From Anaerolineae bacterium (GTDB lineage Bacteria; Chloroflexota; Anaerolineae; Aggregatilineales; Phototrophicaceae): a DNA stretch of 64,000 nt. Under the pieces are notes generated by a model. The model did no database searches. It had not been told where the DNA came from and worked only from the letters and a program-made list of their open reading frames with translations. The stretch spans positions 34,000-97,999 of the forward strand of contig JAPKMO010000002.1 of assembly GCA_026645945.1 (NCBI GenBank), written 5' to 3'. The position numbers and the translations under genes are program-made. Shown piece by piece: positions 61,743 to 64,000 of this stretch (the stretch's first letter is position 1; the number at the start of each line of letters is the position of its first letter).

Positions 61743-63077
61743 TCAGGCGCGCTTTTTCCGCAAGGGGTAACCCTGCGCGGTAATGGCAAAGGTGGTGCAG
61801 CACTGCTCATCAATCAGCCGGCTCTGGATGCGTTTGTCTATTTCTTCCAGCCGCCGGGCGGTGGTGATGACGGTAGGCAGGCGCGCGACGTAGCGGTAGT
61901 CCATGATCTGGAACAGCTTTTCCCTGGCCCATGCGCTGGAATTTTCCGTCCCCAGGTCGTCCAGCACCAGAAACGCGGCGCTGCGTACCATCTGAAACCG
62001 GCGGTCGAATCGGACGGGCGTATCGGGATAATAAGCATCCCGCAGGTGATCCAGCAAATCCGGCACAGTGATAAAGACGACCTGCGCCCCCTGCTGTTCC
62101 TGAAAATGCGCGATTGCGGCGGCCAGATGCGTTTTGCCGCAGCCATACGGCCCCAGGAACACCAGCCATCCCTGGGGACTCGCAGCGTAGGAGCGGGCGA
62201 TTTGCAGCGCCATATCCAGGTTGCGGTGTTCGTCCGGCGTCACATACTGGCGGGTATCAAAATTTTCAAACGTTTTTTCTTTATACAGGCTCAGGCTGGA
62301 CAGCAGCGTATCGCGCTGGTTTTGAATGGCCGAGCGGTAATCCGGGGCGGCGATTTTGACGCGGTGAACAAAATCCTGGTCAAGCAGGCGGCTGCGAATA
62401 CGCGGGTCGAGGGCATCCAGTTCAGCATTGGTCGTCACCACCATCGGCAGGCGGCGGCTGTAGCGAAAATTAAGCAGTTGGAACAGTTTTTCCTGCGCCC
62501 AACTGCTGGCATTTTCCGCGCCCAAATCATCCAGAATCAACAGCGGCACGTTCCGCACGCGGTCGAACAGCTCGTCGTAGCCGATTTCTGAGGCCGGGCC
62601 GAAGGTATTCCGCAGGTAATCCAATAAATCCGGCACGGTAAGGAACAGCACAATATCCCCCTGGGCCAGCCGCGCATTGCCGACCGCCGCCGCCAGATGC
62701 GTTTTGCCGCAGCCGTAACCGCCTTCCAGCAGCAGCCAGCCCTCCGGTTCGGCGGCGAAGCTTTGCGCCACCCCCAGGGCCATCCTCAGCGAATCCGCTT
62801 CCGGCTGGGTGAGCGTGGACAGGCTGGTGTTAAAGCTCTCGAATACCTTGTCGGCGTAGGCGTCCAGGTTGCTGAACCGGCGCAGCCTGTCCTGCCGCTC
62901 CAGGTCTTTTTCAACCGGGTTGTTGGGGCAACGAAACAGCTTGCCAAAACGCGGGTCGTTTACCGGCACATCGTACCGCACGACGCCTAAGCCCTGGCAG
63001 ATCGGCTCGCCGCCGCAGATTCGGCAGCGGCCTTCGTCATCAATGTTTGATGAATCGGGATAGTTCTCCTGTGACAT
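61743..63077 (-). CDS. DnaC-like helicase loader with two AAA+ domains
   Basis: With start at 63077 (GTG at 63119 and ATG at 63089 possible) the protein has 444 residues. Cys18, Cys21, Cys27 and Cys50 suggest an N-terminal zinc site. Two complete DnaC/IstB-type AAA+ modules follow: Walker A GGYGCGKTHLAA (119-130) and GPYGCGKTHLAA (309-320), Walker B LILDDLGAEN and LVLDDLGTEN, and putative Arg-finger/sensor segments RIRSRLLDQ and RIQSRLIDE. Both modules appear intact, each led by an F-x-x-F-(N/D)-T motif. It overlaps the dnaD-like gene by 38 bases. Its place after dnaB and dnaD supports loading of the replicative helicase. Confidence 0.88.
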   Translation of the reverse strand: MSQENYPDSSNIDDEGRCRICGGEPICQGLGVVRYDVPVNDPRFGKLFRCPNNPVEKDLERQDRLRRFSNLDAYADKVFESFNTSLSTLTQPEADSLRMALGVAQSFAAEPEGWLLLEGGYGCGKTHLAAAVGNARLAQGDIVLFLTVPDLLDYLRNTFGPASEIGYDELFDRVRNVPLLILDDLGAENASSWAQEKLFQLLNFRYSRRLPMVVTTNAELDALDPRIRSRLLDQDFVHRVKIAAPDYRSAIQNQRDTLLSSLSLYKEKTFENFDTRQYVTPDEHRNLDMALQIARSYAASPQGWLVFLGPYGCGKTHLAAAIAHFQEQQGAQVVFITVPDLLDHLRDAYYPDTPVRFDRRFQMVRSAAFLVLDDLGTENSSAWAREKLFQIMDYRYVARLPTVITTARRLEEIDKRIQSRLIDEQCCTTFAITAQGYPLRKKRA

Positions 63078-63750
63078 AACTTTGTCCATCTTGCTCAGGA
63101 TGCTGCCCAGCGATTTCACGGCTCTTCCCTTCCGACTCCCACCGCTTCAGAATGCGCTGGATGTAGCGCCAGCTTCGTTTGTTATTCTCCACCGCTTCCC
63201 GGATGGCTTCCTCAATCCAGTGGGACGGATAGTCTTTTTCGGCATCCTTCAGCGCATCCGCGATCATGGCGGTCAGCGGCCCGATGTTTTCTTCGTACAG
63301 GCGGTAAATGTTCGGGCGCTCCGGCAGGATTTCAACCGGGTTCACAGCATCGAACGACTTCCAGCGCCCCTGCTGCACCTGCTGGACGGCGGTTCTGCCC
63401 AGGGCGGTATTGGCGAAATAGAGGGTTTCGCGCCCGTTTTTGGTCGTCACGTCGGCGCACAGCAGCGCGCCGCGCTCAACCGCCCGCCTCAGCGCCATAT
63501 CCAGCGTATCATCCGGGTCGGCGTCTGGGTCGGCGGCGGCCAGGCCGCGCATCAGGTCGAGGTTATCGGAAAAATCCGGGCGGCGCAGGTAGCGAAACCG
63601 CTCGTCCTTTTGCGGCAGCGCCCAGAAGCAGAACAGGATGACTTTCAGTTCGGCTAGATCATCCACCAGCGGCAGCAGTTCCGCAAAAAACGGCGCGGGC
63701 ATTTCCACCATCCGCACCTTGCCGGGCGGAAAACCGTTAAACTTCTGCAT
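63040..63750 (-). CDS. dnaD: DnaD-domain replication initiation protein
   Basis: The 236-residue protein has an N-terminal winged-helix-like part (about 1-100) and a C-terminal DnaD domain: IYRLYEENIGPLTAMIADAL and NNKRSWRYIQRILKRW, the Y-I-x-x-I-L-x-x-W motif that binds DNA. In Firmicutes DnaD works with DnaB/DnaI to open origins and load helicase. The ATG overlaps the upstream dnaB stop by one base, and the downstream loader overlaps its end, so this is a coupled operon. Confidence 0.88.
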   Translation of the reverse strand: MQKFNGFPPGKVRMVEMPAPFFAELLPLVDDLAELKVILFCFWALPQKDERFRYLRRPDFSDNLDLMRGLAAADPDADPDDTLDMALRRAVERGALLCADVTTKNGRETLYFANTALGRTAVQQVQQGRWKSFDAVNPVEILPERPNIYRLYEENIGPLTAMIADALKDAEKDYPSHWIEEAIREAVENNKRSWRYIQRILKRWESEGKSREIAGQHPEQDGQSYVTGELSRFIKH

Positions 63751-64000
63751 CAGATTCGACTCAAATCCACGCTGCGTTCGGCAGCGTTCATAAACTTGGT
63801 GAGCGTCTTTTCAAAATACAGCGACACCGTGCCGGTCGGACCGTTGCGATGTTTGGAGATGATGAGATCAGCCTGGTTAGGGAACTCGGTCGCCTCGTTA
63901 TAGACTTCATCACGATACAGAAATATCACGATGTCCGAGTCCTGCTCGATACTATTATGAGCAACAATATCGTTTGCCACAAAACATTGATTCCCCGGAA
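63750..64000 (-). CDS. dnaB: Replicative DNA helicase DnaB, C-terminal end with intein junction
   Basis: The gene is cut by the right edge. The visible C-extein, 67 residues starting Ser-Ile-Glu-Gln-Asp-Ser-Asp, is the conserved end of DnaB helicase: SIEQDSDIVIFLYRDEVYN and ADLIISKHRNGPTGTVSLYF. Upstream of that Ser the reading frame continues NQCFVANDIVAHN, not the normal RESG, which is the C-terminal end of a DnaB intein. The stop overlaps the dnaD start. In full form it would be the hexameric replicative helicase. Confidence 0.9.
   Translation of the reverse strand, partial: PGNQCFVANDIVAHNSIEQDSDIVIFLYRDEVYNEATEFPNQADLIISKHRNGPTGTVSLYFEKTLTKFMNAAERSVDLSRI
63954..64000 (-). mobile_element. 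Intein C-terminal segment inside dnaB
   Basis: The residues FVANDIVAHN followed by Ser match the intein C-terminal block (F-V-A-N-D-I-I-V-H-N with +1 Ser) seen in the Ssp DnaB intein, which is inserted before S-I-E-Q-D. The terminal His-Asn and the following Ser are the splicing residues. Only about 15 residues are in the window, so its size and any homing endonuclease domain are not visible. Confidence 0.85.

Follow-up and report, generated by a model that had tools for sequence, protein, structure and literature searches.

The window, by which we mean the whole 64,000-nucleotide stretch analysed here (contig JAPKMO010000002.1 of an Anaerolineae bacterium, phylum Chloroflexota), carries on its minus strand a gene for a putative helicase loader in which one AAA+ module occurs twice in the same chain. 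We built a hidden Markov model (HMM) of this module and with it read each module at seven catalytic and four DNA-contact positions. The orthologues from named contigs were the best 80 of 524 relatives, and the counts given with the following features refer to these 80 sequences.

61743..63119, minus strand: tandem AAA+ helicase-loader gene, 458 amino acids, GTG start (open reading frame, Pfam and NCBIfam matches, aligned start)
62322..62876, minus strand: AAA+ module 1 (half 1), residues 82-266, by module HMM; full catalytic residue set
62697..62723, minus strand: Walker A of module 1, GGYGCGKTH; K139 in 80/80
62526..62543, minus strand: Walker B of module 1, LLILDD; D197 in 80/80, D198 in 80/80
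62427..62429, minus strand: sensor-1 Asn231 of module 1; Asn in 79/80
62388..62402, minus strand: Arg pair R240/R244 of module 1 (Arg-coupler/Arg-finger-like); each in 80/80
62334..62336, minus strand: sensor-2 Arg262 of module 1; Arg in 80/80
61755..62303, minus strand: AAA+ module 2 (half 2), residues 273-455, by module HMM; sensor residues lost
62127..62153, minus strand: Walker A of module 2, GPYGCGKTH; K329 in 80/80
61956..61973, minus strand: Walker B of module 2, FLVLDD; D387 in 80/80, D388 in 72/80
61857..61859, minus strand: sensor-1 position of module 2, Ala421, Asn lost; Asn in 0/80
61818..61832, minus strand: Arg pair R430/R434 of module 2; R430 in 68/80, R434 in 78/80
61764..61766, minus strand: sensor-2 position of module 2, Pro452, Arg lost; Arg in 40/80

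Residues 82-261 matched the C-terminal half of the protein at 87 of 180 positions (48% identity, E = 8e-62), which is far beyond chance, and both halves lie in a single open reading frame. The best-matching Pfam family, IstB_IS21 (PF01695), covered the protein as two stretches. The AAA+ domain is of the PF01695/DnaC type, but instead of one N-terminal helicase-binding domain and one AAA+ domain the protein has two modules. Among the 25 NCBIfam models shown, only NF005992 passed (241.8 bits, cut-off 189); this model (PRK08116, 'hypothetical protein') has 269 positions, corresponding to about one module plus the N-terminal part, and the score of the window protein sums two module matches. The first-pass annotation, made from the letters alone, had described one AAA+ module repeated in a single chain, each copy with Walker A, Walker B and an Arg-finger-like segment, together with an N-terminal Cys cluster, and had set this against known loaders with one AAA+ domain. 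The repeat, the motifs and the cluster (C32, C35, C41 and C64) were borne out, and a single AAA+ domain is indeed what DnaC and DnaI have (PMC8213410) and what we found in all 80 viral relatives read, the best 80 of 413. Its description of both domains as intact was wrong: half 2 has Ala421 at sensor 1 and Pro452 at sensor 2, where half 1 has Asn and Arg. Judged by its residues, the catalytic set (Walker A, Walker B, sensor 1, Arg finger, sensor 2) thus appears complete in half 1 and incomplete in half 2.

In 30 further double-module proteins of the same class, some of which may come from the same species as the 80, the sensor-1 Asn was present in 30 first halves versus 3 second halves, the sensor-2 Arg in 30 versus 18, and the finger was Arg in all 30 first halves, with 18 Arg and 12 Lys in half 2. 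Over the class, half 1 had the sensor-1 Asn in 109/110 and the sensor-2 Arg in 110/110, and half 2 had the Asn in 3/110. Three protein searches, each giving the best 120 proteins within a length limit, listed 359 proteins; all 120 from the first search were double, with the Asn in 120/120 first halves and no Asn among the six commonest letters of half 2 (117/120). The sensor-1 Asn was also kept by single-domain relatives, both in the phylum (17/18) and among viruses (79/80). Among the 80 orthologues, 44 positions of half 1 and 27 of half 2 were conserved in 78 sequences or more, and the half-2 equivalents of the residues with which DnaC contacts single-stranded DNA were Arg at 360 in 78, Phe or Tyr at 363 in 80, Thr or Ser at 395 in 79 and Trp at 397 in 80. 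The possibility raised beforehand, that one half lacks catalytic residues in all orthologues, therefore largely holds within the class, where the half-2 Asn was found in 0/80 and 3/30. In E. coli DnaC, ATPase activity is lost when any one of five elements is altered: Walker A, Walker B, sensor 1 (N203A, matching the Ala that half 2 of the window protein has there), the finger (R220) or sensor 2 (R237) (PMC8213410). We consider that the tandem of this class is probably asymmetric, with a half 2 that would not hydrolyse ATP. Half 2 has lost residues for its own ATP and kept an arginine that could act on its neighbour's, as would be expected if its place in the ring were that of a neighbour without hydrolysis of its own. 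The assignment of the Arg finger is uncertain: one alignment sets DnaC R216 on R244, and the R-x-x-x-R spacing suggests R240 as coupler and R244 as finger.

Several observations weigh against such an asymmetry. The half-2 finger is Lys in 12 of the 30 proteins of the second set, Ser or Thr is frequent at half-2 sensor 1 and might still work there, and D388 of half 2 is retained in 72/80. Sensor 2 is a weak mark, as an Arg was aligned there in 17/18 single-domain proteins of the phylum and in only 27/80 viral ones (44 gaps). Moreover, ATPase-dead changes in DnaC leave partial to near-normal loading in vitro, the sensor-1 change hurting most and the Walker A and sensor-2 changes being almost normal (PMC8213410); a lost sensor therefore need not stop loading. 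Loci elsewhere in the phylum point the same way. We read the window and 88 loci, chosen and not random, of 153 matching genomes (64 were not read). In the 40 double-module loci outside the class, the sensor-2 Arg was found in no first half (37 gaps) and in 35 second halves, the sensor-1 Asn in 14 and 8, and the finger Arg in 35 and 39, respectively. Of the 70 doubles of the phylum, 27 combined the Asn with the Arg in the first half alone, 6 in the second half alone, 3 in each of the halves and 34 in neither. Likewise, a Dehalogenimonas-type query listed 119 doubles with the half-2 sensor-2 Arg in 119/119; at sensor 1, Ile was commonest in the first halves (54) and Arg in the second halves (95). 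Because this residue pattern differs, a motor half 1 with an inert half 2 is no phylum-wide rule; as far as residues can tell, the decay is lineage-specific, and many doubles outside the class seem to have the full set in neither half.

Two modules were present in all 80 named-contig orthologues, always in one open frame, and in 70 of the 88 phylum loci besides the window, the remaining 18 having one module. The double form includes the Dehalogenimonas entries 4OHTPN, THU2 and Candidatus D. loeffleri. With the tandem in 80/80 contigs read, we rejected a chimera or assembly error; a phage origin of the tandem itself finds no support in the viral relatives read, the best 80 of 413, each of which has a single module. 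A loader relative was found in 367 of the 396 genomes of the class; the genomes of class family f3 (e.g. G031, G142, G248) gave weak matches only, with E about 1e-24 to 1e-38. The window's own genome yielded no second close loader copy and one weak match elsewhere (29% identity). A Chloroflexota-type tandem loader also stands on a contig titled Pleurocapsa minor (L027), which is probably a mislabelled or mixed assembly.

Trees were built from 11 single-domain proteins and from the halves of 49 doubles, namely the window protein, 11 named relatives out of the 80 and 37 of 38 phylum doubles (the near-copy L093 was left out). In the careful tree, 48 of the 49 half-2 sequences grouped with one single-domain sequence (support 88/88), and well-supported branches forced at least two label changes per half; 0% of 200 bootstrap trees showed either half as one clade. 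Approximately unbiased tests on the quick tree rejected neither one half-2 clade (p 0.31) nor one half-1 clade (p 0.70), and a duplication confined to the window's class was not rejected either (p 0.68). The trees thus fit one duplication or several. Two single-domain proteins, L119 and L132, branch inside half 2 and among the half-1 sequences, respectively, as if different halves had been lost.

Among the 359 listed proteins, 355 had two modules, three had four and one had six, and none had three or five. These longer chains, P0241 (1224 residues, six modules) and P0136, P0261 and P0296 (four each), are metagenomic and were read as proteins only; P0241, P0261 and P0296 were found using P0136 as query. 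P0136 and P0241 are related, with different module numbers, and modules 1-3 of P0261 and of P0296 are mutually 80-85% identical. A quick tree placed the final module of all four chains nearest half 2 and the others nearest half 1 or each other. Consistent with this placement, the last module lacks the sensor-1 Asn in P0136, P0241 and P0261, and the earlier ones have it, except for module 3 of P0241 (Ser). Two points tell against a general pattern: P0296 departs from that of the class, with the Asn in no module, and the last module of P0261 sits on a very long branch. Chains like P0241 were found in 0/396 genomes of the class at E 1e-150 or better, a search that had no positive control and shows little. 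At the level of titles and abstract starts, we found no description of a tandem or multi-module bacterial helicase loader in the literature.

The gene lies beside two replication genes, the second of which is cut by the end of the contig at 97999.

63040..63750, minus strand: gene for a DnaD-domain protein (PF07261, TIGR01446), directly upstream
63750..63998, minus strand: 3' end of dnaB (PF03796)

The downstream genes encode GNAT, KARI-like and HEAT-repeat proteins. In the 71 of 80 relatives with at least 2.5 kb upstream, dnaD was present in 70, dnaB in 63 and both in 62; dnaD was also found in 44 of 45 phylum loci, these being the ones among 49 with at least 0.9 kb upstream. Single-domain loader loci had a same-strand dnaD in all 11 cases, within the distance limit in 10. 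Judged by eye, the 638-residue P0199 seems to be a single open chain in which a DnaD-like N-terminal part is joined to the tandem loader. The dnaB fragment of the window starts beside an intein-like C-terminal junction (VAHNS); in L005, a 98%-identical relative, dnaB is a 794-residue frame (L005:2986-5367) with the intein splicing domain PF14890. The dnaB of L006 has the same length, that of L012 has 682 residues and those of most other listed relatives have 454-471.

DciA is the ancestral bacterial loader; dnaC/dnaI-type genes have taken its place on several occasions, one of them in Chloroflexi (PMC5109545). DciA likely does the same job as the window loader as an alternative gene, although its fold is unrelated (PMC9912922). 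We found no match to DciA anywhere in the window's genome, and DciA/DUF721 (PF05258) was not among the families matched by the loader protein at E 0.01. In a draw of 251 Chloroflexota genomes, 153 had a loader relative (a count that includes single-domain forms and may include mobile copies), 91 had dciA, none had both and 7 had neither (Fisher p 1e-60 for the exclusion, a value that ignores shared descent). The two genome sets share no family label (57 and 14 families). The seven genomes with neither gene at the thresholds used (G006, G017, G034, G064, G090, G098 and G200) possibly have another loader or assembly gaps. This exclusion is strong indirect evidence that the loader does DciA's job. 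The gene has the marks of a resident one, with a conserved place (dnaB and dnaD in 62/71) and no co-occurrence with dciA (0/251), and the window protein is very likely the resident DnaB helicase loader, of the DnaC/DnaI type. As such, it would bind DnaB and put it on single-stranded DNA. The role in replication that the first-pass annotation proposed from the dnaB-dnaD context is well supported by that context, by the near class-wide presence and by the exclusion of dciA. The gene is probably the domesticated Chloroflexi dna[CI] of Brezellec et al. 2016 (PMC5109545), in whose main text, supplements apart, the word 'tandem' does not occur.

Two further features lie in the N-terminal region.

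63075..63110, minus strand: predicted N-terminal helix, residues 4-15 (structure prediction, low to middling confidence)
62928..63026, minus strand: Cys cluster C32, C35, C41, C64, zinc-knuckle-like, a putative zinc site

The start had been placed at the ATG at 63077, but the GTG at 63119 is more likely. The first residue of the longer form aligned with Met in 41 and Val in 20 of the 80 relatives (61/80), as ATG or GTG starts would give, a comparison of residues only, with the relatives' codons unread; a purine-rich stretch lies just upstream of the GTG, and the 14 residues dropped by the ATG form hold most of the predicted helix, which may be a helicase-binding element. C32, C41 and C64 were present in 80/80 in the alignment of relatives; in a second alignment with differently placed gaps, C41 and C64 were found in 118/118 and C32 in only 23/80.

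The single AAA+ domain of E. coli DnaC (PDB 6QEL/6QEM) bears all five motifs, whereas sensor 1 and sensor 2 are missing from the second of the two AAA+ domains in the window protein; the phmmer match of the window protein to DnaC spans the AAA+ part only. Of the solved structures, the nearest in sequence (E 4e-15) is 2W58, from the group of B. subtilis DnaI and its relatives (PDB 2W58, 4M4W); DnaI, too, has one AAA+ domain where the window protein has two. DnaI has a partner of the DnaD type and bears a zinc site ahead of its AAA+ part. IstB, the helper ATPase of IS21 (PDB 5BQ5, 8Q3W), shares the AAA+ fold and PF01695 and has a single AAA+ domain. Clamp loaders and the origin recognition complex (ORC) form rings in which some AAA+ modules hydrolyse ATP and others do not; by analogy the tandem loader resembles them, except that the modules are separate chains there and fused here.

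Structure predictions were confident for the AAA+ modules, and the linker at residues 265-270 had a predicted local distance difference test score below 50. That one chain may supply two neighbouring loader subunits, as the first-pass annotation suggested, is still our best reading, although the predicted model leaves a weak hinge between the halves. Half 1, with its full set of ATP-hydrolysis residues, would be the hydrolysing module, and half 2, its fixed neighbour in the ring, would bind ATP and single-stranded DNA without hydrolysing. The N-terminal helix and the Cys cluster would hold DnaB, and three chains would place six AAA+ modules behind the DnaB hexamer, with hydrolysing modules in alternation with non-hydrolysing ones. 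The half-1 active sites would each be completed by the arginine of a half 2; ATP bound in half 2 would lock the junctions, and hydrolysis in half 1 would release the helicase onto DNA. We give a side-by-side alternating ring of fused halves about an even chance; against it, the predictions do not fix how the two halves are arranged (predicted template modelling score 0.52 with 69 sequences, 0.61 with 145). Four- and six-module relatives would lengthen the run of modules by copying half 1, with a half-2-type module kept last, and six modules on one chain would be enough for a whole loader ring, closed by that module. The polarity of decay would differ by lineage, evolution having tried which half hydrolyses. 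That Chloroflexota loaders are pre-assembled ring segments, with half 1 copied in some lineages and a lineage-dependent polarity of decay, is a tentative proposal when these parts are taken together.

In another arrangement, unlikely but deserving serious weight, six chains would bind each DnaB hexamer and their twelve modules would stack in two tiers, a layout known from two-ring AAA+ machines; the first halves would then make up the active ring, and the second halves either a ring with a structural part to play or a further turn of a spiral that wraps DNA. DnaC and DnaI bind 6:6 and lambda P 6:5 (PMC9912922), and each tandem chain has one N-terminal region; the weak hinge would also suit two tiers, and the top E-value matches of a Foldseek search with the first prediction were two-ring p97 chains. 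However, these whole-chain fits are poor (TM 0.32-0.33, root-mean-square deviation 15.3 to 18.5 Angstrom, top four rows), half 2 retains its Arg finger and DNA-contact residues, and four- and six-module chains would need four and six tiers. We regard as less probable still that half 2 has been repurposed to bind DnaA or DnaD and recruit the loader to the origin or fork, with half 1 alone loading. The looser constraint on half 2 (27 versus 44 conserved positions), the almost constant presence of dnaD nearby (70/71, 44/45) and a fold search that placed the modules of the first prediction structurally close to DnaA would fit, but the ATP, DNA-contact and Arg-finger residues are among those kept and single-domain loaders adjoin dnaD too. 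For the related first-pass suggestion that one half holds DnaB and the other DnaA or DnaD, we found nothing in support, although no direct test was made. It is very improbable that half 2 is a decaying duplicate with no distinct function: its sensor residues are lost and some of the 18 one-module loci among 88 perhaps arose by loss of a half, but every half 2 read still has the Walker A Lys and the Walker B Asp (80/80 and 70/70), both modules share one open frame at all 80 named and 70 double phylum loci, and the tandem occurs inside and outside the class. We find it scarcely credible that the gene represents an IS21 istB helper or a passing phage loader, and the IS21 helper was rejected, for although the best Pfam family is IstB_IS21 and phage loaders are among the relatives, the NCBIfam IS21 helper model scored 149 (cut-off 200), the gene keeps its position next to dnaD and dnaB in relatives, the 80 viral relatives read have one module, and the neighbours examined (dnaB, dnaD, GNAT) include no istA, so that the gene context did not bear out the first-pass proviso of an IS21-type helper (inverted ends were not searched).

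The kind of loader is known, and the two-module architecture is new. In DnaC, the number and order of the ATPase sites that fire, and the number of subunits needed per hexamer, are hard to ask because its six subunits are identical. In tandem loaders, neighbours are naturally fused and some sites are off by sequence, and in P0241 six modules lie on one chain; tandem and multi-module chains would allow single-site changes within a ring of fixed order. Much of the phylum, Dehalogenimonas included, thus has a type of loader for which the titles and abstract starts searched gave no description.
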